Program-made: the position numbers and the translations under genes
Notes under the pieces: generated by a model
Databases searched by the model: none
The model's input: only the letters and a program-made list of their open reading frames with translations
What the model was told of the DNA's origin: nothing
From: Acidithiobacillus ferrianus
Lineage (GTDB): Bacteria; Pseudomonadota; Gammaproteobacteria; Acidithiobacillales; Acidithiobacillaceae
DNA: 64,000 bases
Direction: 5' to 3'
Assembly (NCBI RefSeq): GCF_010378095.1
Contig: NZ_WNJL01000035.1
Span: 62,001 to 126,000 of the forward strand
Shown: piece after piece, positions 34,805-51,424 of the stretch
Numbering within the stretch: the stretch's first letter is position 1
Layout: each line of letters starts with the position of its first letter

Positions 34805-35833
34805 TCAGGCAGCCGCCACGACCCCTTGGTACTGTGGATCGTAGCTCCGCCCCTTAGCCAGCAGCGCCCAGATCATGCGGGCCATCTTATTGGCCAATGC
34901 CACCACAGCCACATTGTGGGGCCGTCGACTCAGCAATTTATCAATCCATGGGTTCCGGTTCTTGATCTGGAAGTTCACCACGACCCTGGCTCCATGAGTT
35001 AGTAATGTTCGGAGATAGACGTCTCCCCGTTTACTGATGCCCAGCAGGCGGACCTTGCCACCGGTCCCACTCTGGCGGGGAACCAACCCCAGAAACGCCG
35101 CAAACTCCCGCCCTGAACGGAAAGATTTCATGTCCCCCACGGTGGCGATGATGGCGGTGGCCGTCAGTAGCCCCACGCCGGGAATAGCCATCAATCGAGT
35201 CACCGCCACCTGGTCTTTCTTCCACAGCATCAAACGCTTTTCGATATCCGCAATATCCTTGTCCATCCCTTCAAGGCGCTTTAATTGCTGGTGAACGGTG
35301 TCCAGCAGCATGGGCGATATGGATTTTTCCAGATCAGCCAAAGCATCAGGAACTTCTTTCAGTCCCCTCTGGCGACCTTGCGGAAGATCGGCACCAAATT
35401 CATAGAGTAGCCCCCGGATCTGGTTCACCTGCATCGTACGCATTTTGATCAGTTGCTCCCGAATACGGTGTAGTGACAGGATGGATTGCTGTTCCTCGCT
35501 CTTGACGGCCACGAAGCGCATATCAGGCCGCTGTACGGCTTCCCAGATCGCTGCCGCATCCGCCGCATCGTTCTTGTTGGTCTTCACGAAGGGACGCACA
35601 AACTGGGCGGCGATCAAGCGAACCTCATGCCCCAGTTTACGCAATTCCCGAGCCCAATAATGGGCACTACCACACGCTTCCATCGCCACGATACCCGGTT
35701 GGCGGTTGGCGAAAAACTCCAGAAGCGCTCGGCGCTTCAACTGTTTGCGATGAATCTCTCCGGTCTCCATGTTTACCCAGTGCAACTGCATGACTGATTT
35801 TGCCAAATCTAATCCATATGTTGTAACCTGCAT
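34805..35833 (-). CDS. IS110 family transposase (DEDD recombinase)
   Basis: 342 aa from the ATG at 35833 (GGAGG site). RuvC-like N-terminal part with YGLDLAKSVMQLH, VAMEAC and KTNKNDAADAAAIWEA; C-terminal Tnp20 domain with IPGVGLLTATAIIATVGD and RQSGTGGKVRLLGISKRGD carrying the catalytic Ser region. Complete and probably active. Moves by guide-RNA-directed recombination according to recent knowledge of the family. Confidence 0.95.
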   Translation of the reverse strand: MQVTTYGLDLAKSVMQLHWVNMETGEIHRKQLKRRALLEFFANRQPGIVAMEACGSAHYWARELRKLGHEVRLIAAQFVRPFVKTNKNDAADAAAIWEAVQRPDMRFVAVKSEEQQSILSLHRIREQLIKMRTMQVNQIRGLLYEFGADLPQGRQRGLKEVPDALADLEKSISPMLLDTVHQQLKRLEGMDKDIADIEKRLMLWKKDQVAVTRLMAIPGVGLLTATAIIATVGDMKSFRSGREFAAFLGLVPRQSGTGGKVRLLGISKRGDVYLRTLLTHGARVVVNFQIKNRNPWIDKLLSRRPHNVAVVALANKMARMIWALLAKGRSYDPQYQGVVAAA

Positions 35834-35963
35834 GATGAGTCCTCCTTGTCCTTCTCGTGGATAAATTTCCACCTTGGCACCTTGATGCCGTCCGGTTCAA
35901 GCGAGGACTCTCTCAAGAAACTCCCCGCTGCCGGTCCTGTGTAGGGGGAGGCATCCATTACAT

Positions 35964-36378: not shown

Positions 36379-37080
36379 TTATGACAGGGTCTTTAGTATA
36401 CATGCGGGTAAAATTAAGGGCTGCCCTTCTAGCCACGGTAGTGTGGAATGCAAAATGTGGGCTTTTTTCCCAGCAATTTCGCCAAGAGAAACCTCGCAAT
36501 CAGCCAGCAGGCGCAAATCATCATCAGTGGCTATCCCATTGTACAGTAGGGGCCAGAGTTTCCGTTCATTTTCTTCGGTCAAAGGACGGGCGCGTACACG
36601 CATAAAACGGTTGCCTGTCCGCAACCACAGCATCTGCTCCAGACCATCCGTTGACCAACAGGTGCCAGCGCCAGCAAAACCGTCGTCGTCCTTCACACGT
36701 TCCCATCGCTCCACATACTCGGTCTCAACACCATATTCTTCTATGGCATCATTTGCAGCGGAAAACACCATGCGTCCCAGGTCGCGCTGACCTGTGGGAC
36801 GGTAGTCTATATAGCGCAACCATTCACAAGTATCACCGCTTACCCATGTCACACCACCAAACCCCTCTTGACTTAATAACGCTTGCAGTTGATAACGGCT
36901 ACAATCTCCAAGTGAAAAGCAACTTGAAAAATCAGGGCGATCGCGTGGTATGCGTAGATCTGCATGCCATGGGCCGACCTGAAGCCAAAATACCAGGGTC
37001 GTATCATCGTTAAGTGTCGGCGTAGTCAGCAGTCTACGCCGCCACAGGCCCTGGTAAATATTACTTGCCAGGTTACTCAT
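36379..37080 (-). CDS. Conserved protein of unknown function, last gene of the leftward guanidine operon
   Basis: 233 aa from the ATG at 37080, which overlaps the stop of the hydrolase gene (TGATG). Visible: SNLASNIYQGLWRRRLL, then FWLQVGPWHADLRIPRDRPDF and a W-rich beta-type middle; no signal peptide, no membrane helix, no catalytic motif. It resembles bacterial proteins with an HRI1/lipocalin-like barrel, a weak impression only. Coupling to a metallo-hydrolase suggests they act together. AT content is higher than in the core genome. Confidence 0.6.
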   Translation of the reverse strand: MSNLASNIYQGLWRRRLLTTPTLNDDTTLVFWLQVGPWHADLRIPRDRPDFSSCFSLGDCSRYQLQALLSQEGFGGVTWVSGDTCEWLRYIDYRPTGQRDLGRMVFSAANDAIEEYGVETEYVERWERVKDDDGFAGAGTCWSTDGLEQMLWLRTGNRFMRVRARPLTEENERKLWPLLYNGIATDDDLRLLADCEVSLGEIAGKKAHILHSTLPWLEGQPLILPACILKTLS

Positions 37081-37862
37081 CAGTCGTGGAAATCTGGAAA
37101 TTGTCGAAGCGTCTGCCAAAATGCAATATCATGATTGGGCCACAGTTGAGCTTTTTCCTGTTCTGCCAAATGCTTTAGCTTGCGGATACTAGCTAATGCC
37201 TGTTCTTCACTGTCCTGCCAGCAGATTCCTGGCGCGATCTCGTCCCGCAGGTTTTCCTCAAGATCAGCAGCATCGCCACAAAGGATGACGGGCGCTCCGT
37301 GCGGAAGCTCAACCCATAGTGACATATGCCCAGCAGTATGGCCGGGACTGGACAAAGCGCGTACCCCAGGTACGAGATCATACTCGCCACTCATTACCTT
37401 CCAGCGATAATCTCCCGAAAAGTCATCGGGAAAGTACGCGGGATCCAATCCGCTGTTCGCAGCTTCGAGTTCGTCACTCTGGACATGAACCTCGGCACCA
37501 CACACTTCGCACAATCCTCCGGCGTGGTCGAAGTGTAAGTGGCCAAGAAATACCAGATCCACGTCGGCCGATGTAAGGCCCAAGCGCTCCAAATGGTGGT
37601 ATAGACGCTGGCCTTCTTGCATATTAGGCGCCCCGAAGCCGAAAGTTTTTGAATCGTAGTAGCGGGCCCGCTGTCGTTGATCGGCAATCTTGCCATAGTC
37701 GCAGCCGACGTCGTAGAGGATACGCCCATGCTTAGTTTCAATCAGATACGCGAGGATTGGCGCCTCTATGACTTGCCCTTGACCACGATGACGAGTTGAC
37801 ATGGATTTGTCATAATGATGAGTGGCGGTAAGTAGCGGCCACATCTTGAGAACTTGGGTCAT
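37080..37862 (-). CDS. Metallo-beta-lactamase-fold hydrolase (AHL-lactonase-like)
   Basis: 260 aa from the ATG at 37862 (GGAAG site). Zinc motif HLHFDHAGG (HxHxDH), later HTAGHMS and GDAADL, and a last His in WPNHD: all metal ligands of the MBL fold are present. Closest in style to the AttM/AiiB lactonases, but the family also includes amide and ester hydrolases. Third gene of the riboswitch-led leftward operon, after the desaturase; it may act on that enzyme's product. Cytoplasmic. Confidence 0.85.
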   Translation of the reverse strand: MTQVLKMWPLLTATHHYDKSMSTRHRGQGQVIEAPILAYLIETKHGRILYDVGCDYGKIADQRQRARYYDSKTFGFGAPNMQEGQRLYHHLERLGLTSADVDLVFLGHLHFDHAGGLCEVCGAEVHVQSDELEAANSGLDPAYFPDDFSGDYRWKVMSGEYDLVPGVRALSSPGHTAGHMSLWVELPHGAPVILCGDAADLEENLRDEIAPGICWQDSEEQALASIRKLKHLAEQEKAQLWPNHDIAFWQTLRQFPDFHD

Positions 37863-37967
37863 AAAATCTTCCAAAGCATAGCGTTGATCACTGCGGCCGT
37901 AATCGGTCGCTCTCACTAGCAAAATAAATTTACATATAATACATCAGTTTTCGATGATTTTATTTAA

Positions 37968-38978
37968 CTACACCGCAGTTAAAAAAGAAACCCCAACCGC
38001 ACCGTAAAAACCATCGGCTTTTTGCAGTCCAGAGGTTACCTTACCATAATCATCACTAAGGATGCGCTTTACTCGGTATTTATGGAACCCAGAAAGCAAC
38101 CGAGACATCGGAATGATATTTTCACTGACGTCCCCATATAGTTCAAGGTGCAAAGATGGCAGACGGTACCAAGGGACTCCTGGTTTTTCATGGTGAGCAT
38201 TGTGGTAAGAAAAATTGAGTAGCAGCATATTGAGAAAAGGGTAACGCACCGAAACAAGATTAGAATAGGTGTTGTTCTGTTCGTAGGCACGATCACGTAT
38301 CTTGTTCCCAGGAACACAACCTTCCGCTAAGATGGCGATCGCATCGTATGTATGCTGATAAGAGTCAGCGAAGCGCAGCACCGTAATAAAAATCAAATAG
38401 GCGACAATATACAGTACTAATGCCTTCAACGATACCCAAGCCAGCCCTGCGAAAAACAACAGGCGTAAAACCAATACAGAAATGATACGCTTTCTGTCCG
38501 CCACACGCGTTGAATCAATGAATGGCAATATCATGACATAACCCCGCATTATAAACTCTACTGCAGGAATGTAAGCCCATTCAAGAAATAGAACTACGTT
38601 ACACAGCCATGAAGGCCCCGCGCGCAGAAAGGCTTTGTAGTCGAAGGTGATCACATCAGCACGGTCTCTATGATGCCGCATGTGTTTTCTACGCAAATCA
38701 AGAAATGAAGCGTAGCAGCTACCGTTTAACCATCCCATGGCCACACCACACCGAAAATTAAATTCTTTAGTTTTGAATACTGTCCCATGAGCAAATTCGT
38801 GGATGAAATAGGCCGAAAATATCAGGCTATGTGCAACAACAAACATGCCTAGAATGTTTAGCCACAAATTCCCATAAATTAACAATACAATCCCTACACC
38901 ATAGCCGATGAATGTATATCCGATGGCGAGGATGTTTGCTGCGGCCCCTTCTTTATTGCAAAAGAAATTGCGAATCAT
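37968..38978 (-). CDS. Membrane fatty acid desaturase/hydroxylase-family di-iron enzyme
   Basis: 336 aa from the ATG at 38978 (GAGGTG site). Three histidine boxes bind two irons: HEFAHG, HMRHH and HNAHH. Four or more membrane helices surround them. The PF00487 family does O2-dependent desaturation or hydroxylation of membrane-bound or alkyl substrates. It lies downstream of a guanidine-I riboswitch and a substrate-binding protein, so oxidation of an alkyl or lipid-like guanidine is a possible role; a lipid substrate cannot be excluded. Confidence 0.85.
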   Translation of the reverse strand: MIRNFFCNKEGAAANILAIGYTFIGYGVGIVLLIYGNLWLNILGMFVVAHSLIFSAYFIHEFAHGTVFKTKEFNFRCGVAMGWLNGSCYASFLDLRRKHMRHHRDRADVITFDYKAFLRAGPSWLCNVVLFLEWAYIPAVEFIMRGYVMILPFIDSTRVADRKRIISVLVLRLLFFAGLAWVSLKALVLYIVAYLIFITVLRFADSYQHTYDAIAILAEGCVPGNKIRDRAYEQNNTYSNLVSVRYPFLNMLLLNFSYHNAHHEKPGVPWYRLPSLHLELYGDVSENIIPMSRLLSGFHKYRVKRILSDDYGKVTSGLQKADGFYGAVGVSFLTAV

Positions 38979-39068
38979 TATCAGCACCTCATCACTTTTA
39001 TCAGTCAACTATTAACACTGGAATACATTATTTAAGCTTCGAAAATAAATACGGATAGTAAACATACA

Positions 39069-39095
39069 GCTCGCCGGTGAAAAACTCCAGCGAGC
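39069..39095 (-). terminator. Intercistronic hairpin between binding-protein and desaturase genes
   Basis: Stem GCTCGC/GCGAGC with a 15-nt loop and no T-tract after it. More likely an mRNA stabiliser or partial attenuator that sets a higher level of the binding protein than a full terminator. Confidence 0.5.
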
Positions 39096-39107
39096 CAAGC
39101 AATACAA

Positions 39108-40133
39108 TTAAAATCCATTATGCGCCTTCCAGAGGATGTGCTTTACAAAGCTGCTATCAAACGTTGTTGATGTTGGAGGAATGCGACTTATGTCTTTGTC
39201 ATGAAGTTGTATCTGGCTTATTATTGCTCCACTTGTGTAATATGATAGTGATGATTTACTCTTTTTAAACACCTCGCCCATGTTTGATTCTGAAACATTT
39301 TTCACGCCAGTATATTGTGATTCTACTGACGAAATACTTATATTTAATTCTTTTGCAATTATTTTCATTGATTTATCGTGATGTTTAGTCATGTATTCCA
39401 TGCCGGCAATATAACCTTTTATTACATCAAGCACTTCACTAGGTTTGGTTTTTATAAAATTGGAATTGAAAGTTAAGGTGTCAGAAATCAATCCGGGAGC
39501 GTCTTTTGATGAGTACACTACGTGAAAGAGTCTACCATCACCTAAAGAAAGAGCTTTTGAAACATGTGGTTGCCATGTTACCCCAATGTGAACACTGCCT
39601 GAAGCGAGCGCTGATGGTATACCACCAGCTGATATGTTTATTTTCTTTATATCACTAAACCCCATATGATGCTTTTTCAAGGCATAACCCAATAAAAATT
39701 CTGATGGAGTCCCAAAGTTGTATGCTACTTTGTGATCTTTAAAATCAGCCACGGTCTTTATCGAGTCAGATGCTAAAATAGCATCTGCGCCATCTGAGTA
39801 GTCAATTGGCATTACAACTTTTACGGGCAATCCCCTTGCTACGGCCGGAATCACTTGATCGTATGTTAGTGTGCTCGCATTAACAGCATCAGATGCGGTC
39901 GCTCCGGACATTAATGCGCCGTCACTAAAATTGATTAATTTTACGTGTACGCCATATTTATTAAATAAATTCATTTTTTCAGCAACGTATAATGGCCCAT
40001 ATCCAATCCAGCTAACCACCGCAATCTTAACTTCTGGGTAAGTGCTCGAAAATGCGTCGGCAGGCTTAAACAGAAGCGACAATGTAAACACACTTAAAGC
40101 AAGCACAGAACTAAACCTATTTCTAACGCGCAT
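39108..40133 (-). CDS. ABC substrate-binding protein (NitT/TauT, NMT1-like), riboswitch controlled
   Basis: 341 aa from the ATG at 40133 with a GGAG site. N-terminal signal peptide (basic start, SSVLALSVFTLSLLF, cut near ADA-F). Mature part is an NMT1/SsuA-type periplasmic binding protein (VVSWIGYGPLYVAEKMNLFNKYGV). It is the first gene after the leftward riboswitch and has no permease or ATPase of its own; it may share the importer encoded in the rightward operon. Its ligand may differ from that of the paralogue at 41800. Confidence 0.85.
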   Translation of the reverse strand: MRVRNRFSSVLALSVFTLSLLFKPADAFSSTYPEVKIAVVSWIGYGPLYVAEKMNLFNKYGVHVKLINFSDGALMSGATASDAVNASTLTYDQVIPAVARGLPVKVVMPIDYSDGADAILASDSIKTVADFKDHKVAYNFGTPSEFLLGYALKKHHMGFSDIKKINISAGGIPSALASGSVHIGVTWQPHVSKALSLGDGRLFHVVYSSKDAPGLISDTLTFNSNFIKTKPSEVLDVIKGYIAGMEYMTKHHDKSMKIIAKELNISISSVESQYTGVKNVSESNMGEVFKKSKSSLSYYTSGAIISQIQLHDKDISRIPPTSTTFDSSFVKHILWKAHNGF

Positions 40134-40174
40134 AAGTATCTCCAAGTATTGTCAGTTATATGAGGAGCGACGTT

Positions 40175-40289
40175 AAAAGCCCGGAAAATAACATTCGCAT
40201 GTCATCTCCCGGGCTTTTATCCCTCCGTGTGCCCTGTTTATCAGGGCGGAAACTCTCGGTCCGAACGCCTTTGCTGGCTGGAACCCTAG
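40175..40289 (-). promoter_or_regulatory. Guanidine-I (ykkC) riboswitch, leftward
   Basis: On the minus strand the conserved blocks follow in order: CTAGGGTTCCAGC, CGGACCGAGAG, ACACGGAGGGATAAAAGCCC GGGAGA. The 3' block AAAAGCCCGG (40209-40218) can instead pair with CCGGGCTTTT (40175-40184), giving a terminator hairpin with T4. So guanidine binding should free transcription of the binding-protein operon. Confidence 0.92.
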
Positions 40290-40306
40290 ATTCCTGTGAT
40301 AATTAA

Positions 40307-40615: not shown

Positions 40616-41233
40616 TCAATGGGATATTCTGGTAAGCCATCCTCCAGTCGCGTCGGCGACGCGCTTTGGTAGCTGGGCAGAGCCCCCAATAATGTCAAGC
40701 CTTTCCGCCATGCCTGGAACGCCGAGACGGGAAAGTGGAATGGCACGTCCCTTGAAATCGGGTTTTCCATGTGTACCTACTTTGGACATAAGATCATCCA
40801 GAAACTCCGACCCTGGTTCTATGCCACTGACCAACAGTGCGTCGCGGGCGCGCGTGCAGGCGACATATAACAAGTGCCGCTCGGTATTGTAAACCTCTTC
40901 AAGGTCGGCCTTGTCGGCGACAGATGCAATGCGTGCCTGCAATGGGATGACTTCATCATCGCAAGCCAGCACCGCTACGGCGCGGAATTCTAAACCCTTG
41001 GCCAGATGCATGGTGCATAGAGAGGTGTACCCGACCGCGGTCTCGACCTGGTCATCGAGCACACGAAAAGGCAGCGCCGCCGCTTCAGTCGCCGCACGGG
41101 CGCGATCTATTTCCGTGTTTGAGCGAACAAAGAGGCCGATTTCGTGGGGCGGCATCCCTTCCGCTACTCGTTCCTGAAGCCATTGCGCTATGGCCGCAGT
41201 CTCGTCCGCCGTATCCGCAAAGACACGAATCAC
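40616..41233 (-). pseudogene. UvrD-like helicase C-terminal fragment
   Basis: About 205 codons that start mid-protein. Visible are the UvrD C-terminal region (VGYTSLCTMHLAKGLEFRAVAVLACDDEVIP) and motif VI (RHLLYVACTRARDALLVSG). The N-terminal motor with motif I is absent. At 41233 it joins a RhuM fragment. A dead remnant lying between the two guanidine promoters. Confidence 0.75.
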
Positions 41234-41653: not shown

Positions 41654-41670
41654 TTCTAATATTTAGGATT

Positions 41671-41787
41671 CTAGGGTTCCAGCCTGCAAAGGTGATCGGA
41701 CCGAGAGTTTCCGCCCTGCCGCGCAGGGTACACGGAGGGATAAAAGCCCGGGAGATAACAGTGAAAGCTGCTATCTCCCTTTTTTTT
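41671..41787 (+). promoter_or_regulatory. Guanidine-I (ykkC) riboswitch with terminator, rightward
   Basis: Conserved blocks CTAGGGTTCCAGC, CGGACCGAGAG and ACACGGAGGGATAAAAGCC are all present. The 3' GGGAGATA (41750-41757) pairs with TATCTCCC (41772-41779), followed by T8: a classic intrinsic terminator. Free guanidine should stabilise the aptamer and let transcription pass. Confidence 0.95.
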
Positions 41788-41799
41788 GGAGAAACGCGC

Positions 41800-42789
41800 A
41801 TGAAAAAATTGAAGTCACTCTTATTGGCAGGAACGCTGACGTTGGCTCCTTTTATACTATCTGCAAATGCGGATGCGGAACCTATCACTCTGGGTCTGAG
41901 TAATTGGCCCGGTTGGGTCGCATGGTACGTCGCTGAGCACAACGGTTATTTGAAGAAATACCACGCCGACTTCAAATTAGTATGGTTTAGCAGTTACATG
42001 ACGTCAGTGGAAGCGCTTTCAGCCGGAAAAATAGATGCAAATTGCCAGGCCCTAATTGACACCCTGGCACCTGTGGAAAAAGGTGTTCCGATAAAAGTTA
42101 TTTTAGTGACTGATAATTCACATGGTAATGACGCACTGATGGTGAATAACTCTATCACTACATTCAAACAGTTGGAAGGAAAGACCATTGCGGTGCGCAT
42201 GGATTCCATAGAACAGTATCTCGATGAATATGCGCTAGAGAAAAACAATATTCCAATAACATCCGTACATTTCAAAAACATGTCAACAGGCGATTCGGCT
42301 GCAGCATTAATGGCGGGACGAGTAGACGCCGCAGGCGTTTGGAATCCGTGGATACAGAGAATTGAAGAGAAAAAGCTAGGGCATGCCATTTTTTCTAGTG
42401 CTAGTGCTCCAGGGGTCATTCCAGATGTTGTGGCTGCCCGTGAAAGCGTCTTGAAAGCATATCCTCAACAGTTCATAAACTTATCAAAAGCTTGGTTTGC
42501 TACTGTAAAATTCATCAAAGAACATCCAAAACAAGCGGCTGCTATAATGGCGCCACATGTCGAGTTATCTCCATCTGTTTATTTGACCGCATTGTCTGGG
42601 ACACGCCTATTTGGACCAAGGTTAAATCTGGAGGCAATGAATCCTGAAGACAAGGAAAAATCGGTTTCGCTCTATAAGAGCACCGACGATACCTCGGTTT
42701 TCCTTAAAAAGGTAGGGGCAATTTCTGCGAAACCTAACCCGACAAGCTTTCTTGATTCTGGATTTATCGAAAAGTCTGAAAATAAGTGA
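41800..42789 (+). CDS. ABC substrate-binding protein, guanidine importer
   Basis: 329 aa from the ATG at 41800 (GGAGA site), straight after the riboswitch terminator. Signal peptide (KKLKSLLLAGTLTLAPFILSANA). Mature NitT/TauT-type binding protein (LGLSNWPGWVAWYVAEHNGYLKKYHADFKLVWF). First gene of the operon with permease and ATPase, so the likely ligand is guanidine or a close relative, inferred from riboswitch and neighbours. The longer frame upstream is the riboswitch. Confidence 0.9.
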   Translation: MKKLKSLLLAGTLTLAPFILSANADAEPITLGLSNWPGWVAWYVAEHNGYLKKYHADFKLVWFSSYMTSVEALSAGKIDANCQALIDTLAPVEKGVPIKVILVTDNSHGNDALMVNNSITTFKQLEGKTIAVRMDSIEQYLDEYALEKNNIPITSVHFKNMSTGDSAAALMAGRVDAAGVWNPWIQRIEEKKLGHAIFSSASAPGVIPDVVAARESVLKAYPQQFINLSKAWFATVKFIKEHPKQAAAIMAPHVELSPSVYLTALSGTRLFGPRLNLEAMNPEDKEKSVSLYKSTDDTSVFLKKVGAISAKPNPTSFLDSGFIEKSENK

Positions 42790-42879: not shown

Positions 42880-43662
42880 ATGATAGCGTTAACTAATATA
42901 CGAGATTCAATTCCTCGCTGGGTATATATATCGTTTTCAATAGCTGGCTTTATAATCCCGCTGGCTGTTTGGCAGATAATATGTAGTATGCACATTTTCA
43001 GTGCACTCTTTTTGCCATCACCGGAGCGGGTGTTTAAATCGTTCGAAAGGTGGACTGCTAGCAACCTGTGGGAGGATACCTATATAAGTGCATATCGCGT
43101 TGTCTCCGGGTTCTTGCTGGCGGCGGTCATTGGTGTACCAATCGGCATATACATAGGTACTTTCAAGATGGTTGAGGCGATGCTACAGCCGATAAATGAT
43201 TTTATACGGTACATGCCGGCTTCGGCATTCATACCCTTGGTGTTACTCTGGATTGGTATTGGTGAATCTGCCAAAATTTCTATAATATTTATTGGGGTAT
43301 TTTTCCAGATTGTCGTTATGGTTGCGGATGCTGTAAGAAACATTCCGCAGAAATACATTGAGGCTGCCTATACTATGGGCGCTAAGAAAGGGGAAGTTTT
43401 GAACCATGTTATTTTTAAGGGTGCCGCGCCTGACATATTTAATATTTTGCGCGTTAATATGGGTTGGGCATGGACCTATTTAGTAATTGCGGAAATGGTG
43501 GCTGCAGATAGAGGGCTTGGCTTTGCCATTTTGCAGGCTCAGCGTTTTATGGACACCCCTAAAATATTTGTCGGAATAATAATAATCGGTATTCTTGGCC
43601 TTTTGTTTGATCTGTCATTCAGGATTATGCATCGTATTTTTTTTGTATGGAGTTATAAGTGA
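42880..43662 (+). CDS. ABC transporter permease (NitT/TauT, SsuC-like)
   Basis: 260 aa with six membrane helices. The EAA loop is visible as EAAYTMGAKKGEVLNHVIFKGAAPDIFNILRVNMGWAWTYLVIAEM. Forms the membrane channel with the ATPase gene that overlaps its stop (TGATG). Confidence 0.9.
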   Translation: MIALTNIRDSIPRWVYISFSIAGFIIPLAVWQIICSMHIFSALFLPSPERVFKSFERWTASNLWEDTYISAYRVVSGFLLAAVIGVPIGIYIGTFKMVEAMLQPINDFIRYMPASAFIPLVLLWIGIGESAKISIIFIGVFFQIVVMVADAVRNIPQKYIEAAYTMGAKKGEVLNHVIFKGAAPDIFNILRVNMGWAWTYLVIAEMVAADRGLGFAILQAQRFMDTPKIFVGIIIIGILGLLFDLSFRIMHRIFFVWSYK

Positions 43663-44513
43663 TGAGCGCTGGAGCGGTTGATATCAGCCATATATTTAAG
43701 TCATTCAGGATAAAAGAAAGAAAAAAGCTAGTCATTAGGCCGGTGCTGGAAGACATTAATTTAAGCATTCGCCCAGGCGAAAAAATTATGATAGTTGGTG
43801 CATCAGGTTGTGGAAAATCTACCCTGTTAAGACTTGTGGCTGGATTGGAGCAGGCAGCCGCTGGTTCAATATCCATAGATGGAGATGTGGTTAATGGGCC
43901 AGGGGCTGATAGAGGAGTAGTCTTTCAGCAATCAACACTGTTTCCTTGGATGACCGTGTGGGATAATATTATATTTTCCAGAAGGCTGCGCATTAGTTTG
44001 AATTCGCGAGATGAACAGGTATCACGCGCCGTGTACCGAAGTAATGCGTTAGTCACCCTGATGGGATTGGAACGATCGGTAGAATTATATCCCGATCAGT
44101 TAAGTGGTGGCATGCAACAGCGGGCTAATATCGCCAGGGCTCTGGTATCCAGTCCAAAAGTCCTGTTGATGGATGAGCCGTTTGGTGCGCTTGACGCGCA
44201 AACTCGCGAAACTATGCACAAGGTGGTTAGTCACCTTTTTAATGTCGAAAAAACGACTGTAATGTTTGTCACTCACGATGTCGAGGAAGCTATAGTTTTG
44301 GGTGATAAAATAGTTGTTTTGAGCGCCAATCCAGGGCGTGTAGATAGTGTGTTTACGACAGAATTATTAAAGCGTGACGAAGACGGAATCGTCATAAAAA
44401 ATGACCCTGTCTTTTTTGACTTTAAGGAACAGATATTGTCACGTATCAGAGAGACTACCACCTTGAGAGCGACAGGCGATCTTTTGCAAAGGGTCGCAAA
44501 AACATTGGTCTAG
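43662..44513 (+). CDS. ABC transporter ATP-binding protein (NitT/TauT, SsuB-like)
   Basis: 283 aa. Walker A GASGCGKSTLLRL, Q-loop QQSTLFPWMTV, signature LSGGMQQRANIARAL, Walker B VLLMDEPFGALD and H-loop VTHDVEEA all intact. ATG at 43662 chosen over GTG 43659 because of TGATG coupling to the permease. Powers the guanidine-type importer. Confidence 0.95.
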   Translation: MSAGAVDISHIFKSFRIKERKKLVIRPVLEDINLSIRPGEKIMIVGASGCGKSTLLRLVAGLEQAAAGSISIDGDVVNGPGADRGVVFQQSTLFPWMTVWDNIIFSRRLRISLNSRDEQVSRAVYRSNALVTLMGLERSVELYPDQLSGGMQQRANIARALVSSPKVLLMDEPFGALDAQTRETMHKVVSHLFNVEKTTVMFVTHDVEEAIVLGDKIVVLSANPGRVDSVFTTELLKRDEDGIVIKNDPVFFDFKEQILSRIRETTTLRATGDLLQRVAKTLV

Positions 44514-44594
44514 AATGTATTCACGTGTAAATAGTTGTTTGCTCTTTCTCAGGGTGATCAATCGCGAGAGTTTACTGGTCAAGGAGGTAAGTTT

Positions 44595-45308
44595 ATGTCT
44601 GGAGAAATTATATGGGATGACTTGATTGTGGCTGGTTCGCATAGTTCGTTCGTCATGAAACGTAATACAGCGCTTAGAATTACCGATCTCGACGGCGACG
44701 GAAACCTGGTCACTCTCTTTTATAATAATGATAATAGATTAGAGCGGTATAACATGGCCGACACTCTTAAAGCTCAACATACTGTTTTTTTGTCGAAGGG
44801 AAATGTTTGTTATTCTGATATGGGTAGAATTATCTGTTCTATAGTGGATAGTTCATGCGGTTGGCATGACACTATATCGGGTATGAGTAATGCCAAAACC
44901 GTCGGTAGTAAATACGGTATACTCAACTATCAAGAAGCGCGAAACGATATGCACCATAATGCTCACGACGGTGCTCTCATCGAATTGTCAAAATGGGGTC
45001 TCGGAAAACAGGATTTGCTAGCGAATGTTAATTTTTTCAGCAAGGTCACTGCAGATGATTTTGGTAACCTGTCATTTGTTTCTGGCAATAGCCAGCCTGG
45101 AGATTTTGTAGATCTTAGATTTGAGATGAATACGCTGGTTGTTGTGGTGTCTTCTCAGCATGTGCTGGATCCGTCATCTCTATATTTGCCTAAACCATTT
45201 GCGCTTTCAGCACGGAATATTTCGACAGCGGGGCCGTACGATTTCTGCCGAAAGTCCTGTCCAGAGAATGAAAGGGGTTTCTATAATACCGAACTGATCT
45301 TCAGATAG
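44595..45308 (+). CDS. cgdA: DUF1989 protein, carboxyguanidine deiminase subunit (UAAP1)
   Basis: 237 aa from the ATG at 44595 (AAGGAGG site); the upstream extension is dropped. DUF1989 'urea carboxylase-associated protein' with RITDLDGDGNLVTLFYN, CGWHDTISG and MHHNAHDGALIEL. In guanidine-degrading bacteria the two DUF1989 proteins form a deiminase turning carboxyguanidine into allophanate. Contains conserved Cys and His suited to metal binding. Which of the pair corresponds to CgdA is assumed from order. Confidence 0.85.
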   Translation: MSGEIIWDDLIVAGSHSSFVMKRNTALRITDLDGDGNLVTLFYNNDNRLERYNMADTLKAQHTVFLSKGNVCYSDMGRIICSIVDSSCGWHDTISGMSNAKTVGSKYGILNYQEARNDMHHNAHDGALIELSKWGLGKQDLLANVNFFSKVTADDFGNLSFVSGNSQPGDFVDLRFEMNTLVVVVSSQHVLDPSSLYLPKPFALSARNISTAGPYDFCRKSCPENERGFYNTELIFR

Positions 45309-45322
45309 GAGGTTTATAAACG

Positions 45323-45958
45323 ATGACTCAGAATAATGGCAGCTTTACACAGCGCAATATACTATATGACTTTGTCCTTAACGCAGGTGACTCATGGATG
45401 CATGACGTGCTGGCGGGACAGATATTACGCATTGTGGATCAGGATGGCAATCAGGCAGCGGATACACTGATATATAATTCCAACGATCCGTCTGACCGTT
45501 ACAGTGCGACAGACACCATCACGGCCCAACGTAATATTTATTTGACCACCGGCAGTCGGTTGCTTTCCAATGAAGGCAATTTACTCATGACTATCGTTGA
45601 GGATACGTGTGGTCGCCATGACACCATTGGTGGTGCATGTTCTGCGGAAAGCAATACCGTACGATATTCTTTGGATAAAAAATACATGCATAGTTGTAGA
45701 GATAGTTTCTTGCTTGCAGCTATTAATTGCAATTGTCACTTAGGTAAACGTGACATCACCAGCAATATAAACTTTTTCATGAATGTTCCAGTGTGCGAGA
45801 ATGGCACTCTCAATTTTGCGGACGGCGTCTCCGGCCCCGGTAAATATGTTGACTTGAGGGCTGAGATGGATGTGAAAGTACTGATATCAAATTGTCCGCA
45901 GCTCAACAATCCTTGCAATGCCTATAACCCAACGCCATTGCAGCTGATGATTTGGTGA
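45323..45958 (+). CDS. cgdB: DUF1989 protein, carboxyguanidine deiminase subunit (UAAP2)
   Basis: 211 aa, with a strong AGGAGG site. Paralogue of the preceding protein: [56 protein letters not shown], and [36 protein letters not shown]. Probable partner in a heteromeric deiminase that links the carboxylase to allophanate hydrolase. Confidence 0.85.
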
Positions 45959-46027
45959 ATGGCGTGCGATGGCTGAGACGCCTTAGCCACCTTATCCGTT
46001 AGCAGGACGACCTGCCGAGTAATTGAT

Positions 46028-49000
46028 ATGTTTAATAAAATTCTTATAGCGAATCGCGGCGCCATCGCTGTCCGTATCATTCGCACCCTCAGGAAGATGG
46101 GCGTTCAATCTGTTGCTGTTTACTCGGATGCAGATCGATTAAGTCCGCATGTCCTCCTGGCCGACGAGTCAGTACATATAGGCGCCTCGCCCGCAGCTCT
46201 GAGTTACCTTCAAGAGGATGCCATTCTTCATGCAGCGCTCGCTCTTCATGTGGATGCTATTCACCCAGGTTATGGTTTTTTATCCGAAAACCCTGATTTT
46301 GCCTCTGCCGTAGAAAACGCCGGGATGGTGTTTATTGGACCATCGCCCGAGCAAATGCGTTCTTTTGGTCTGAAGCACACTGCACGGGAAATCGCACGCA
46401 GAAACGGCGTCCCCCTACTGCCAGGCACGGGATTATTAGCCGATGTCGGCCATGCCATGGTTGAGGCTCAGCATATTGGGTTCCCCATCATGCTCAAGAG
46501 TACTGCGGGTGGTGGTGGCATTGGTATGCAGCTGATCTGGAGTGAGGATGCCCTGCAGGACGCCTATGCTCGAGTAGACCGCCTCGCGCGGGCCAACTTC
46601 AAAGAAGCGGGCATCTACCTGGAAAAATATGTACAGGCTGCACGTCACATTGAGGTGCAAATCTTCGGCGATGGAAAAGGCCATGTGGTACATCTTGGCG
46701 AGCGGGACTGCTCGGTTCAGCGGCGTAACCAAAAGGTCATCGAGGAAACTCCGGCCCCTAATCTGCCCGAATCTATACGACATGCGTTGTGCGACACCGC
46801 AGTGCGCTTGATGCAGGGAGTTTGCTACCGTAACGCGGGAACAGTGGAGTTCGTGCTTGATGCAGACTCTGGTGACTTCTATTTCCTTGAGGTCAATACG
46901 CGTTTGCAGGTCGAGCACGGGGTGAGCGAAGAGGTCAGTGGCGTCGATTTAGTGGAGTGGATGGTGCGGCAGGCGGCGGGCGAATCACCTATTGCTGGCT
47001 ATGTGCACTCAGCGTGTGGTCACAGTATCCAGGTGCGCCTCTACGCCGAAGATCCCGGCAAGAACTTCCAGCCCGCCGCTGGCATATTGAGTGAAGTGGT
47101 GTTTCCTCCGGATGCCCGGGTTGACACCTGGGTCGAGGCAGGTAGCGAAGTCACGGCATATTACGATCCCATGCTTGCCAAGCTCATTGCGCATGGCAGC
47201 GACCGTAGCGATGCGCTGGCGCGCATGCGATCGGCGCTGGATGCCACGCGCATTTATGGTTTTGAGACCAATCTTGGTTATCTCCGCCAGATTGTCAACG
47301 ACGCAACCTTTGCGCAAGGTCGGCAGACTACGCGCTATCTCAGCGCTTTGGCCTACCATGCGCCCACGCTGGATGTGATTGAACCAGGTGTGCAGACCAG
47401 CCTGCAGGATTGGCCGGGGCGTCTGGGTTATTGGGATGTCGGCGTGCCACCATCCGGGCCGATGGATGCACTCGCCCATCGTGTGGCCAATCGCCTGCTC
47501 GACAACCCACCAGAGGCGGTGACCCTGGAAATTACCTTGAGCGGACCTACCCTCAAATTCAACGCCGACAGCGTCATCGCCGTTACCGGTGTCGATCTGT
47601 CGGTCGCACTCGATGGGCAGCCATTGGCGTTGTGGTGCAGCCATGCGGTACGTGCCGGCGGCGTACTTAGGTTCGGTAGCCTGAGCGGCGCTGGCTGCCG
47701 TGCCTATTTAGCAGTGGCTGGCGGCTTCGACACGCCGCTCTATCTGGGCAGTCGCGGCACCTTCACGCTCGGCCAGTTCGGTGGTCACGCCGGGCGCACC
47801 CTGCGCACCGGTGATGTGCTGCATTTAGGTGCCAATCCGCAGTCCCAGTCTGGGCGACGCGTGGCGCCACAGGCTTTGCCGGCTTATAACGAGCATTGGG
47901 AAATCGCTGTGCGCTACGGGCCGCACGGCGCACCAGATTTTTTTACAGACGCTGACGTGGCGATGTTCTTCGCCACCGACTGGGAGGTGCACTACAACTC
48001 CAACCGAACAGGAGTGCGGCTCATTGGTCCGCGGCCGCAATGGGCGCGCAGCGATGGCGGCGAGGCCGGTTTGCACCCCTCGAACATTCACGACAATGCC
48101 TACGCCATCGGCGCTGTGGACTTCACCGGTGACATGCCGATTCTGCTCGGCCCGGATGGCCCAAGCTTGGGTGGCTTTGTCTGTCCCGCGGTGATTGTTG
48201 CTGCTGACCTATGGAAGATGGGCCAGTTGCGGCCAGGCAATACCGTACGCTTCGTGCCCGTTAGTCTGGAAGAAGCCGCCCGCCTGGAATGCGCGCAAGA
48301 CGCGGCGCTCGAAAACCTGTCCACTTTTCTGGACCCGCCGCTGGACGCAACACCGGCATTGGAATCACCTATCGTCGGCCGATATGACACGCCGCGACAT
48401 CCGGTGGGAGTGGCCTATCGCGTAGCCGGCGATAAACACCTGCTGGTTGAATACGGACCGCTGGTACTGGATCTGGAGCTACGCTTTCGCGTCCATGCGC
48501 TGATGGAAAACCTGCGTATGCGCAACTTGCCCGGCGTTATCGACCTCACCCCAGGCATTAGATCGCTACAAATCCATTATGACAATCGCACGTTATCGCT
48601 GACAAAACTCCTTGCGGTGTTGCGCGGCGCCGAAGATGAATTGCCTGCCGTGGATCTCATGGAAGTGCCAACGCGCATCGTGCATTTGCCGCTGTCCTGG
48701 GACGATCCCGCCACCCGGTTGGCTATCGAAAAATATATGACAGGGGTACGCAGAGAAGCCCCCTGGTGTCCATCCAACATCGAGTTCATACGCCGTATCA
48801 ACGGTCTGGACAGCATGGAAGATGTACATCGAATCGTGTTCGACGCCAGCTATCTGGTGCTGGGTCTGGGCGATGTGTACCTTGGCGCGCCGGTGGCTAC
48901 GCCACTGGACCCGCGTCACCGCCTGGTCACCACCAAATACAATCCAGCGCGCACTTGGACCCCGGAAAACGCTGTGGGTATCGGCGGTGCCTATATGTGT

Positions 49001-49627
49001 GTTTACGGTATGGAGGGGCCAGGTGGTTACCAGTTCGTAGGCCGCACCCTGCAGATGTGGAACCGCTGGCGGCAGACTGCGCAATTTACCGATGGTAAGC
49101 CTTGGCTCCTGCGTTTTTTCGACCAGATCCGTTTCTTCCCCGTCAGTACGACAGAGCTGGAAACCATCCGCACCGACTTCATGCACGGACGCTACCTTCT
49201 GGATATTCGTGAAGATACTTTTCGTATTGCGGATTATCGGCGTTTTGTAACCGACAATGCTGACGATATCGCCGCATTTCGGGATCGCCAGCGTCAGGCT
49301 TTCGCCGAGGAGCGCGAGCGCTGGACCCAATCTGGCCAAGCCAACTGGATCAGCGACGCAACGGTGGCTGAGGACGCGGGTGACATGGATCTGGATCTGA
49401 CCGCCGGTGCGCACCCAGTGGCTAGCCCTATCGCCGGCAGTGTGTGGAGGATTCTGGTCAAAGCGGGTGAACGAGTACAGGCCAATGATCCGCTGATTAT
49501 TTTAGAGTCCATGAAAATGGAGATGACCGTCGAGGCGCCTACCTCTGGTGTTATTGATCGTCTGCTCTGCCGCGAAGGCGAAGCGGTCAGTGCTGGACAG
49601 AACGTGCTGACACTGATGGAGAGCTGA
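46028..49627 (+). CDS. Biotin-dependent guanidine (urea-type) carboxylase
   Basis: 1199 aa. Biotin carboxylase part, residues 1-450 (ILIANRGAIAVRIIR, GGGGIGMQ, DCSVQRRNQKVIEE, EVNTRLQVEHGVSEEV); carboxyltransferase part of AHS1/AHS2 (KipA/KipI-like) type, ~455-1050 (LQDWPGRLGYWDVGVPPSGPMD); biotinyl domain at the end (ESMKMEMTVEAP, Lys biotinylated). It is of the urea carboxylase type, but the riboswitch and the two DUF1989 genes argue that the natural substrate is guanidine, giving carboxyguanidine with ATP and bicarbonate. GC content is higher than in the transporter part. Confidence 0.9.
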   Translation: MFNKILIANRGAIAVRIIRTLRKMGVQSVAVYSDADRLSPHVLLADESVHIGASPAALSYLQEDAILHAALALHVDAIHPGYGFLSENPDFASAVENAGMVFIGPSPEQMRSFGLKHTAREIARRNGVPLLPGTGLLADVGHAMVEAQHIGFPIMLKSTAGGGGIGMQLIWSEDALQDAYARVDRLARANFKEAGIYLEKYVQAARHIEVQIFGDGKGHVVHLGERDCSVQRRNQKVIEETPAPNLPESIRHALCDTAVRLMQGVCYRNAGTVEFVLDADSGDFYFLEVNTRLQVEHGVSEEVSGVDLVEWMVRQAAGESPIAGYVHSACGHSIQVRLYAEDPGKNFQPAAGILSEVVFPPDARVDTWVEAGSEVTAYYDPMLAKLIAHGSDRSDALARMRSALDATRIYGFETNLGYLRQIVNDATFAQGRQTTRYLSALAYHAPTLDVIEPGVQTSLQDWPGRLGYWDVGVPPSGPMDALAHRVANRLLDNPPEAVTLEITLSGPTLKFNADSVIAVTGVDLSVALDGQPLALWCSHAVRAGGVLRFGSLSGAGCRAYLAVAGGFDTPLYLGSRGTFTLGQFGGHAGRTLRTGDVLHLGANPQSQSGRRVAPQALPAYNEHWEIAVRYGPHGAPDFFTDADVAMFFATDWEVHYNSNRTGVRLIGPRPQWARSDGGEAGLHPSNIHDNAYAIGAVDFTGDMPILLGPDGPSLGGFVCPAVIVAADLWKMGQLRPGNTVRFVPVSLEEAARLECAQDAALENLSTFLDPPLDATPALESPIVGRYDTPRHPVGVAYRVAGDKHLLVEYGPLVLDLELRFRVHALMENLRMRNLPGVIDLTPGIRSLQIHYDNRTLSLTKLLAVLRGAEDELPAVDLMEVPTRIVHLPLSWDDPATRLAIEKYMTGVRREAPWCPSNIEFIRRINGLDSMEDVHRIVFDASYLVLGLGDVYLGAPVATPLDPRHRLVTTKYNPARTWTPENAVGIGGAYMCVYGMEGPGGYQFVGRTLQMWNRWRQTAQFTDGKPWLLRFFDQIRFFPVSTTELETIRTDFMHGRYLLDIREDTFRIADYRRFVTDNADDIAAFRDRQRQAFAEERERWTQSGQANWISDATVAEDAGDMDLDLTAGAHPVASPIAGSVWRILVKAGERVQANDPLIILESMKMEMTVEAPTSGVIDRLLCREGEAVSAGQNVLTLMES

Positions 49628-51424
49628 ATGTCTAGTAGCCTGTATATACACAACTTGCTGTCAGCCTACCGCTCCGGGCAACTTACCCCGACGAGTTTGG
49701 TGGAGGAGTTGCTTGAGCGTTCTGCCCGCTATACGGATCATGCAATCTGGATCACTCCGCCGCAGCGTGAACATTTGCTCATACGCACGCGGGAGTTGGA
49801 AGGCCAAGACATGGAGGGGCTGCCGCTCTACGGGGTGCCTTTCGCCATCAAGGACAACATGGATCTGGTTGACGTACCTACTACCTGTGCCTGTCCTGAC
49901 TTTGCCTATACGCCCAAGAACTCTGCTATGGTGGTGCAAAAGCTGATAGACGCCGGCGCTATCGCCATGGGTAAGACCAATCTCGACCAGTTTGCCACCG
50001 GCTTGAATGGCACACGCTCGCCCTATGGTGCCTGCCGCAACGCCTTCGCTCCGGACTACATTTCCGGCGGATCGAGTGCCGGATCGGCGGTGGCTGTGGC
50101 GCTGGGTCTGGCGAGTTTTTCATTGGGCACAGATACTGCCGGTTCTGGCCGCGTACCGGCGGCTTTCAACAATCTTGTTGGACTCAAACCGACCTGCGGC
50201 CTGCTGTCTACCTCCGGCGTAGTACCAGCCTGCCGTTCCCTAGACAGTGTATCGATATTCGCTCTGAGTGCGCAGGACGCCCAGCGGGTCTTTGCGGCTG
50301 CACTGGGGGAGGATACATCTGATCCTTATTCACGCACGATCCAGCCCCACGGTTTTGACTTTGGCCGTGCGCCGCGTTTTCGCTTCGGCGTGCCAGCGGC
50401 CAAGGACCTGAACTTTTTTGGGGACGACCAATACGGGCATTTGTTCGACGCAGCTGTGACGCGGCTCGAATCGCTGGGCGGCGAACGCGTCGAACTGGAC
50501 TTCGCCCCCTTCCTGGAAACCGCTCGTCTGCTTTACGGCGGCCCCTGGGTGGCTGAACGTTACCATGCCATCCGCAGTTTTATTAATACTTACCCCGATG
50601 CATTATTTCCAGTCACCCGCGATATCACCCTGGGAGGAGCCAAGCCGCTGGCTGCAGATGCATTCGCGGCGCTTTACCGGTTACGGGAGCTCAAGCGAAA
50701 ATGCGACTGCATTTGGCAGCAGGTGGACTGCGTCCTTACACCTACAGCAGGCACTATTTTTACCCGCGCCCAACTGCTGGCCGACCCCATGGCTAGGAAT
50801 ACCGACCTGGGCTACTATACCAATTTCATGAATCTGCTGGATTACGCGGCAGTGGCGGTGCCGGCCGGATTCCGCGTTGACGGCCTGCCGTTCGGCGTCA
50901 CGCTGTTTGCCCCAGCGCATCAGGATGTGCCGCTGCTACGTCTGGCTGAGCGTTGGCAGTTGACAGACTCCGTGCCCAACGGCGCTGTGGAAACCATGCC
51001 GCCACCAGTGGAAACCGTGCCCGCAGCAGTGTCTAGTGGGCAGGTGCGGGTCGCGGTGGTCGGTGCTCACCTCAGCGGGCTACCGCTCAATCATCAAATC
51101 ACTTCACGCGGTGGCCGGCTGATAAGTGACACCAGTACCGCCCCTTGCTATCGGCTATACGCCCTGACCGACGGCAAGCGTCCCGGACTGGTCCGCGTTG
51201 CCCATGGGGGTAAGGCGATCGGCTGCGAGGTGTGGGAGATGTCTGCCGCGGCCTTCGGATCTTTTGTCAACGGTATCCCCGCGCCGCTAGGCATCGGTAC
51301 CGTCGAACTCTTCGATGGCAGCCATGTTAATGGGTTCATATGCGAGGGTGTTGGCATCACCGATGCCGTAGACATCACGGATTTCAAAGGATGGCGTGCT
51401 TATCTGCGTTCCATACAGGGCTGA
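49628..51424 (+). CDS. atzF: Allophanate hydrolase
   Basis: 598 aa. Amidase-signature N-terminal domain with the Lys-cisSer-Ser triad: Lys in FAIKDNMD, GGSSAGSAVAV, and DTAGSGRVPAAFNNLVGLKPT; C-terminal allophanate-hydrolase domain (VAVVGAHLSGLPLNHQI, TSTAPCYRLYAL). Splits allophanate to 2 NH3 and 2 CO2. ATG follows the carboxylase stop with no gap (TGAATG). Last gene of the operon. Confidence 0.93.
   Translation: MSSSLYIHNLLSAYRSGQLTPTSLVEELLERSARYTDHAIWITPPQREHLLIRTRELEGQDMEGLPLYGVPFAIKDNMDLVDVPTTCACPDFAYTPKNSAMVVQKLIDAGAIAMGKTNLDQFATGLNGTRSPYGACRNAFAPDYISGGSSAGSAVAVALGLASFSLGTDTAGSGRVPAAFNNLVGLKPTCGLLSTSGVVPACRSLDSVSIFALSAQDAQRVFAAALGEDTSDPYSRTIQPHGFDFGRAPRFRFGVPAAKDLNFFGDDQYGHLFDAAVTRLESLGGERVELDFAPFLETARLLYGGPWVAERYHAIRSFINTYPDALFPVTRDITLGGAKPLAADAFAALYRLRELKRKCDCIWQQVDCVLTPTAGTIFTRAQLLADPMARNTDLGYYTNFMNLLDYAAVAVPAGFRVDGLPFGVTLFAPAHQDVPLLRLAERWQLTDSVPNGAVETMPPPVETVPAAVSSGQVRVAVVGAHLSGLPLNHQITSRGGRLISDTSTAPCYRLYALTDGKRPGLVRVAHGGKAIGCEVWEMSAAAFGSFVNGIPAPLGIGTVELFDGSHVNGFICEGVGITDAVDITDFKGWRAYLRSIQG

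Follow-up and report, generated by a model that had tools for sequence, protein, structure and literature searches.

A guanidine-I riboswitch operon of Acidithiobacillus ferrianus may release guanidine through a membrane oxygenase and an MgdL-type lyase

The 3.17 Mb draft genome of Acidithiobacillus ferrianus (G000) contains, within the 64,000-nucleotide stretch analyzed here (hereafter, the window: contig NZ_WNJL01000035.1, positions 62,001 to 126,000 of the forward strand), a block of four open genes that lie on the minus strand at 36379-40133, in the order SBP1, DES, MBL and UNK, after a guanidine-I riboswitch. An earlier note, made from the letters of the sequence, had described this single-strand arrangement and the TGATG junction between MBL and UNK, both of which are confirmed by the Rfam and Pfam matches and by the junction itself. 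The features of the block are as follows:

40204..40300, minus strand: guanidine-I riboswitch aptamer of the DES operon (RF00442, 80.6 bits against a gathering score of 63)
40174..40219, minus strand: terminator-like hairpin overlapping the 3' strand of the aptamer (21 pairs, CUUUU end, -31.6 kcal/mol, z -8.95)
39108..40133, minus strand: SBP1, periplasmic substrate-binding protein of the NMT1/SsuA type (PF09084, PF13379)
37968..38978, minus strand: DES, membrane PF00487 protein, proposed hydroxylase of an N-substituted guanidine
37080..37862, minus strand: MBL, metallo-beta-lactamase-fold hydrolase resembling N-acyl homoserine lactone (AHL) lactonases (PF00753; HLHFDHAGG)
36379..37080, minus strand: UNK, MgdL-family protein by homology and predicted fold, proposed guanidine-hemiaminal lyase (D41, R43)

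The UNK protein belongs to no Pfam or NCBIfam family, and its profile has no match among PDB sequences at E 1. MgdL, described in 2025 as a lyase of N-(hydroxymethyl)guanidine, has catalytic Asp49 and Arg51, is modeled as a beta-barrel and binds guanidine through acidic residues and a tryptophan of the barrel (PMC12508155). An MgdL-type protein encoded at one of the loci analyzed here, L113, agrees with that description in its D49/R51 numbering and in the gene order gca, dioxygenase, MgdL-type gene, allophanate hydrolase. UNK aligns with this protein at 33% identity over 218 residues (E 4e-31) and with a second MgdL-type protein at E 2e-34, and it retains the catalytic Asp-x-Arg as D41 and R43, which are invariant (48 and 16 aligned rows). 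The predicted model of UNK, with a predicted local distance difference test score (pLDDT) of 92.9, is a beta-barrel of 12 strands that carries D41 and R43 on one strand; W32, W87, E115 and E124 are invariant as well (16 rows) and are located on predicted strands, as candidates for the guanidine-binding residues. Structural matches to the model include lipocalin-like barrels and the uncharacterized yeast protein YLR301w (HRI1; 3rby), a eukaryotic protein whose common fold says nothing of a common function. Judging from sequence and model together, UNK is most likely an MgdL-type hemiaminal lyase that would catalyze the guanidine-releasing step.

In an evenly drawn sample of 390 Pseudomonadales genomes, the UNK family is represented by 21 matches, of which 15 adjoin a gene for an MgdH-like 2-oxoglutarate (2-OG) dioxygenase, 4 lie in DES operons and 2 in neither setting; guanidine-I riboswitches are present in 18 of the 20 genomes with UNK compared with 92 of the 370 without it (p 4.9e-9). 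Because a lyase of this family adjoins either an MgdH-like dioxygenase or DES, DES probably replaces MgdH as a non-orthologous oxygenase. A first tree was built from 79 rows thinned to 55 at 80% identity; a second excluded four rows that were overlong or aberrant (L091, L110, L111 and L112). In the second tree, the two MgdL-type rows cluster with 37 DES-paired rows (100/100), and the 12 remaining MgdH-paired rows fall outside this group, but how often the oxygenase was exchanged is uncertain because a constraint that unites the DES-paired UNKs in one clade without MgdL has a p value of 0.296 in the approximately unbiased test (p-AU).

DES itself matches PF00487 at 116 bits against a cut-off of 29.7, with the histidine boxes HEFAHG, HMRHH and HNAHH, and with H60, H64, H99, H102, H103, H259, H262 and H263 invariant in the 40 aligned rows of its profile (the window protein and 39 of the 120 homologs listed from 1996). 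PF00487 is its sole Pfam match, and the 2-OG/Fe(II) dioxygenase domain of MgdH was not found in it, whereas MgdH-like genes match PF14226/PF03171. GntB, the arginine hydroxylase of guanitoxin biosynthesis, is weakly similar to DES and, like it, is a transmembrane protein, with a guanidino substrate; it is, however, biosynthetic, and DES scores only 25.1 bits against the GntB family NF041365, for which the cut-off is 380. GntB is not known to place its hydroxyl group on the carbon adjoining the guanidine.

This similarity bears on the alternative that DES hydroxylates the guanidine-bearing carbon of arginine, homoarginine, agmatine or a guanidino acid, with guanidine then eliminated, as by the plant homoarginine-6-hydroxylases. 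We consider such a reaction improbable. GntB, which acts on arginine (PMC10367076), is one of just three NCBIfam matches of DES, yet the score is a small fraction of the family cut-off; elimination would need no MBL, in line with the distant DES genes of loci L120 and L121, which are accompanied by neither UNK nor MBL, but the hydroxylated forms of homoarginine and arginine are said to decay too fast for detection (PMC12186494), and the presence of UNK in 53 of 54 loci and of creatininase genes in relatives (see below) would be left unexplained.

The link between DES and guanidine riboswitches is general and goes beyond chance. Related loci were the best 80 of 229 confirmed DES places in species of the Genome Taxonomy Database (GTDB), selected by DES similarity, with evenly drawn samples of 300 Burkholderiales genomes and of the 390 Pseudomonadales genomes as controls for that selection. 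SBP1 lies immediately 5' of DES in 78 of the 80 loci, the remaining two (L012, L062) being interrupted by contig ends. Where the left flank is at least 1.5 kb, a guanidine-I riboswitch is located on the same strand no more than 1.7 kb upstream in 70 of 73 loci; none was found within this distance of DES at L013, L040 and L091. At L091, permease and ATPase genes lie between the riboswitch and SBP1, and with the exception of L040, guanidine-I is above cut-off somewhere in the genome (79/80).

Among the Burkholderiales, 49 genomes match the DES profile, 19 of them strongly (at least 497 bits, centre included), and all 19 contain guanidine-I above cut-off, compared with 20 of the 281 others (Fisher p 1.3e-19). 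The copy lies 1.06-1.17 kb upstream in 17 of these genomes, including G079, where the match is partial, at a contig end and below cut-off, and about 10.8 kb upstream in the other two; four further genomes have middling matches only (370-418 bits), three of them with guanidine-I, and the remaining 26 matches are weak. Among the Pseudomonadales, 61 genomes match, 4 strongly (>540 bits, one being the centre), and all 4 carry guanidine-I 1.1 kb upstream as well as UNK; 13 of the 22 genomes with middling matches (264-418 bits) have guanidine-I (p 0.002), and the other 35 matches are weak. Closer to the window, DES was matched in 5 of 57 kin genomes, 2 of these matches being weak and partial. UAAP2, a subunit of carboxyguanidine deiminase, is above cut-off in all three kin genomes with strong DES compared with 7 of the 54 others (4 of the 7 belong to the window's genus), and because it is present in kin that lack strong DES, the guanidine pathway also exists without this gene. 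The DES operon is distributed over many beta- and gammaproteobacteria. The earlier note had called for such a comparison and would have given up its idea if homologs were never linked to guanidine genes, which is clearly not the case.

The same gene company bears on the possibility that DES, as a member of PF00487, desaturates or hydroxylates lipids like other members and merely happens to lie among guanidine genes, for example, for membrane adaptation to guanidine stress. We reject this highly unlikely assignment on the conserved neighborhood of DES, given that it recurs with an importer, an MgdL-type lyase, short-chain dehydrogenases/reductases (SDRs) and small-molecule amidohydrolases, with no known lipid enzyme among the scanned operon genes. 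Of the earlier suggestion that an alkylated or lipid-like guanidine is oxidized, the N-substituted guanidine survives as the best reading, and nothing found supports a lipid-like substrate.

Most relatives have extra genes between DES and UNK, the typical order being riboswitch, SBP1, DES, SDR1, SDR2, EamA transporter, creatininase, isochorismatase-type amidase, MBL, UNK, permease and ATPase. In the 54 loci with a right flank of at least 9.5 kb, UNK is found in 53 (L033 is the sole case without it), a creatininase-like gene in 50, MBL in 45 and a permease after UNK in 37. The three creatininases scanned from relatives all score above the cut-off of 235 bits for TIGR04448 (359 to 383 bits), the creatininase-like protein of L040 matches solved creatininases (E 1.5e-77), and the amidase beside it matches biuret hydrolase (E 7.8e-64), entries named just putative amidase scoring slightly better. 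Two DES genes are present in 5 of the 80 loci (L022, L023, L034, L035, L043), four of which also have a second SBP1-like gene; L027 has an MgdH-like dioxygenase gene near its DES operon, and the fetched sequence includes a carboxylase or UAAP gene at 33 of the 80 loci. The window, L012, L013 and L074 have a minimal operon that lacks the SDRs, creatininase and amidase; no creatininase above the TIGR04448 cut-off was found in these four genomes, two of which have matches that fall short of it (135 and 86 bits), the best in the window genome being 135.4 bits.

These gene sets raise the alternative, less likely than the reading favored below, that a creatinine-type compound is degraded: DES would hydroxylate the alpha carbon beside the guanidine nitrogen of creatinine (or of creatine), MBL (in the window) or creatininase (in the relatives) would open the ring, UNK would split the carbinolamine into methylguanidine and glyoxylate, and further oxidation would give guanidine. 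The abundance of creatininase-like genes fits this scheme, and so do the duplicated DES genes, as a two-step oxidation would require, but the four distinct minimal-type genomes, the window's included, lack a creatininase above cut-off, such that creatinine is unsupported as the window's own substrate via creatininase. UNK is accompanied by MBL, by creatininase or by both in all 62 loci that contain it (both in 48, MBL only in 5, creatininase only in 9); however, the absence of loci with neither agrees with chance (about 0.7 expected), and mutual replacement of the two genes is not significant. All 15 Stutzerimonas loci among the 80 have a creatininase-like gene, and Pseudomonas stutzeri converts creatinine to methylguanidine according to a review, but the co-product given there is acetic acid, a misfit with glyoxylate (PMC11764249), and the single guanidine-I riboswitch tested in print fails to bind methylguanidine (PMC12508155). 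A creatininase-like gene is shared with the pathway of creatininase, creatinase and sarcosine oxidase; in the relatives, by contrast, its companions are guanidine genes together with those for an oxygenase and a lyase.

In a figure legend of the same review, the entry that precedes methylguanidine amidinohydrolase is an enzyme 8, marked "not yet characterized"; we take this enzyme to catalyze the creatinine-to-methylguanidine step (PMC11764249). Creatol (5-hydroxycreatinine), the key precursor of methylguanidine according to another paper (PMC3775425), already is a carbinolamine formed on a guanidine nitrogen. It is a speculative and rather doubtful extension that the longer operon represents the missing guanidine-forming gene set for creatinine, with DES producing a creatol-like carbinolamine, MBL or creatininase opening it, the lyase yielding methylguanidine, and a second demethylation round by the same chemistry, for which we point to the operons with two DES genes, delivering guanidine to the carboxylase pathway; the window would then be a stripped-down core.

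The best PDB relative of MBL is an AiiA-type lactonase (E 1.3e-34); the AHL lactonases AiiA and AttM, together with 4-pyridoxolactonase, which share the fold and the HxHxDH motif, are its closest relatives of solved structure. MBL nevertheless scores 145.5 bits against the AiiA-type family NF045699, with a cut-off of 375, and no lactone metabolism was recognized near its gene. The MBL step would be the opening of a cyclic amide or the removal of an acyl group; our guess is that it opens a creatol-like ring or hydrolyzes an over-oxidized acyl-guanidine. The earlier note had MBL hydrolyzing the oxidized product so that guanidine is freed. Release of guanidine is still the best reading, but its assignment to MBL is weakened by the absence of this gene from 9 of the 62 UNK loci and by the homology of UNK to MgdL, the more likely releasing enzyme.

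We consider it fairly probable that the operon is a module, induced by guanidine, in which DES and UNK convert an N-substituted guanidine to the free compound. Binding of guanidine would lift the terminator and switch the operon on; an ON switch is expected because the 3' strand of the aptamer also pairs in the terminator-like hairpin, which makes this direction probable, although the hairpin at 40174..40219 is absent from the output of a simple terminator scan. SBP1 would bind and deliver the imported substrate; DES, a membrane non-heme iron protein of the PF00487 fold, would hydroxylate the carbon adjoining a guanidine nitrogen; and UNK would cleave the C-N bond of the resulting hemiaminal by Asp/Arg acid-base catalysis, yielding guanidine and an aldehyde. 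Methylguanidine or a creatine/creatinine-type compound would be the likeliest substrate: if UNK has kept the narrow specificity of MgdL, it would be methylguanidine and the aldehyde would be formaldehyde, whereas creatinine-type substrates are suggested because the fuller relatives add two SDRs, creatininase, amidase and transporters. Free guanidine would then enter the carboxylase, carboxyguanidine deiminase and allophanate hydrolase route encoded by the divergent operon:

41660..41756, plus strand: second guanidine-I riboswitch, before the SBP2 operon (RF00442, 78.4 bits)
41800..42789, plus strand: SBP2, substrate-binding protein of the gca operon (PF09084; TIGR01728 above cut-off)
42880..44513, plus strand: ATP-binding cassette (ABC) permease (42880-43662) and ATPase (43659-44513) (PF00528, PF00005)
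44535..45958, plus strand: UAAP1 and UAAP2, carboxyguanidine deiminase subunits (TIGR03425 and TIGR03424 above cut-off)
45970..46014, plus strand: guanidine-II-like element before gca (RF01068, 27.6 bits against a gathering score of 32, E 8.8e-4)
46028..49627, plus strand: gca, predicted guanidine (urea-type) carboxylase (open reading frame; 55% identical to the L113 carboxylase)
49628..51424, plus strand: allophanate hydrolase, atzF-like (TIGR02713, 795 bits against 511)

The order riboswitch, SBP2, permease, ATPase, UAAP1, UAAP2, carboxylase, allophanate hydrolase, with both UAAP proteins (which we take to be CgdA and CgdB) and the allophanate hydrolase over their cut-offs and a biotin carboxylase adjoining, contains the features of the guanidine carboxylase pathway. 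Since the window has no permease or ATPase beside UNK, SBP1 perhaps uses those of the facing operon, which would then be common to SBP1 and SBP2.

The closest known parallel is the methylguanidine demethylation system MgdH/MgdL of Vreelandella boliviensis, where an O2-dependent oxygenase lies beside the guanidine carboxylase pathway (PMC12508155). Both systems are controlled by guanidine-I, are associated with an ABC importer and with gca, cgdAB and atzF, and combine an oxygenase with a lyase of the MgdL family. V. boliviensis has a guanidine-II element before gca (PMC12508155), where the window has a sub-threshold guanidine-II-like element in the same place; at L010 (G020), a guanidine-II element above the gathering score precedes gca. 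Unlike MgdH/MgdL, the DES operon has a PF00487 membrane oxygenase, an added MBL and a separate riboswitch operon, and most of its relatives also carry SDRs, EamA, creatininase and amidase. We set it apart from the MgdH type because UNK resembles MgdL in sequence and fold and DES lacks the MgdH domain: the known part would be the two-step removal of an N-substituent, and the new part an oxygenase of another domain family. The earlier view that a membrane O2-dependent oxidase falls outside the known pathway thus needs revision, an O2-dependent oxygenase being in print there as MgdH (PMC12508155), but holds in that MgdH is a different kind of enzyme.

Several observations weigh against a DES-UNK guanidine-releasing module. 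DES is close to no characterized enzyme (its best NCBIfam scores, CrtW at 29.9 bits and then GntB, are far below cut-offs), and its profile has a single, unrelated match among PDB sequences (E 0.45), with no close solved structure. MgdL is reported to be narrow for N-(hydroxymethyl)guanidine (PMC12508155), which speaks against bulkier substrates, and simple demethylation leaves MBL with no assigned role. No guanidine-I riboswitch was found before SBP1 in Acidithiobacillus sulfuriphilus (L013/L009) or anywhere in the genome of Tepidiphilus (L040). UNK is present in only 1 of the 22 Pseudomonadales genomes with middling DES matches, and at L120 and L121 the distant DES lies in a gca-type carboxylase operon; either UNK is not always needed or DES of this kind may differ. 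DES is missing in 4 of the 7 UAAP2-bearing genomes of the window's genus and its sister genus. Finally, co-transcription of SBP1, DES, MBL and UNK is presumed, across gaps of 129 nt (SBP1-DES) and 105 nt (DES-MBL). A promoter-like site (9/12 matches) lies on the minus strand at 39004-38977, inside the first gap; single sites of this kind mean little because the region has 16 on both strands against 9.0 (sd 2.7) in shuffles.

Beyond these points, three Pseudomonadales loci (L119-L121) have a distant DES (38-41%) inside or adjoining carboxylase-type operons without UNK. The window genome holds a third guanidine-I copy (L011:3297-6867), with an SBP-like frame and an agmatinase-family ureohydrolase 3' of it; this ureohydrolase scores below the agmatinase cut-off and is perhaps a guanidine hydrolase, in which case the organism may have two guanidine routes. 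At L011:1258-1547, there is an Rfam match to the 5' ureB small RNA (88 bits), which may merely reflect a urease-like gene on the opposite strand. A transposase frame, presumably IS110-like, adjoins the cluster at 34805-35872, and a UvrD C-terminal fragment lies between the two riboswitches at 40616-41233, hints of rearrangement.

No description of the DES operon was found among the papers listed in the literature searches, where coverage of subscription papers is thin and a mention may have been missed; one paper that treats riboswitches together with a desaturase ties the desaturase to cobalamin, not guanidine (PMC2211319). A widespread class of riboswitches raises the question of how free guanidine arises in nature. 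If the proposed functions are correct, there would be a second, unrelated oxygenase route from substituted guanidines to guanidine, with a named lyase partner, and a likely function for the unannotated UNK family as well as for one branch of the proteins that carry the name "fatty acid desaturase". The operon would also provide candidate genes for the bacterial conversion of creatinine to methylguanidine, a uremic-toxin route for which the 2025 review appears to list the enzyme as uncharacterized (PMC11764249).

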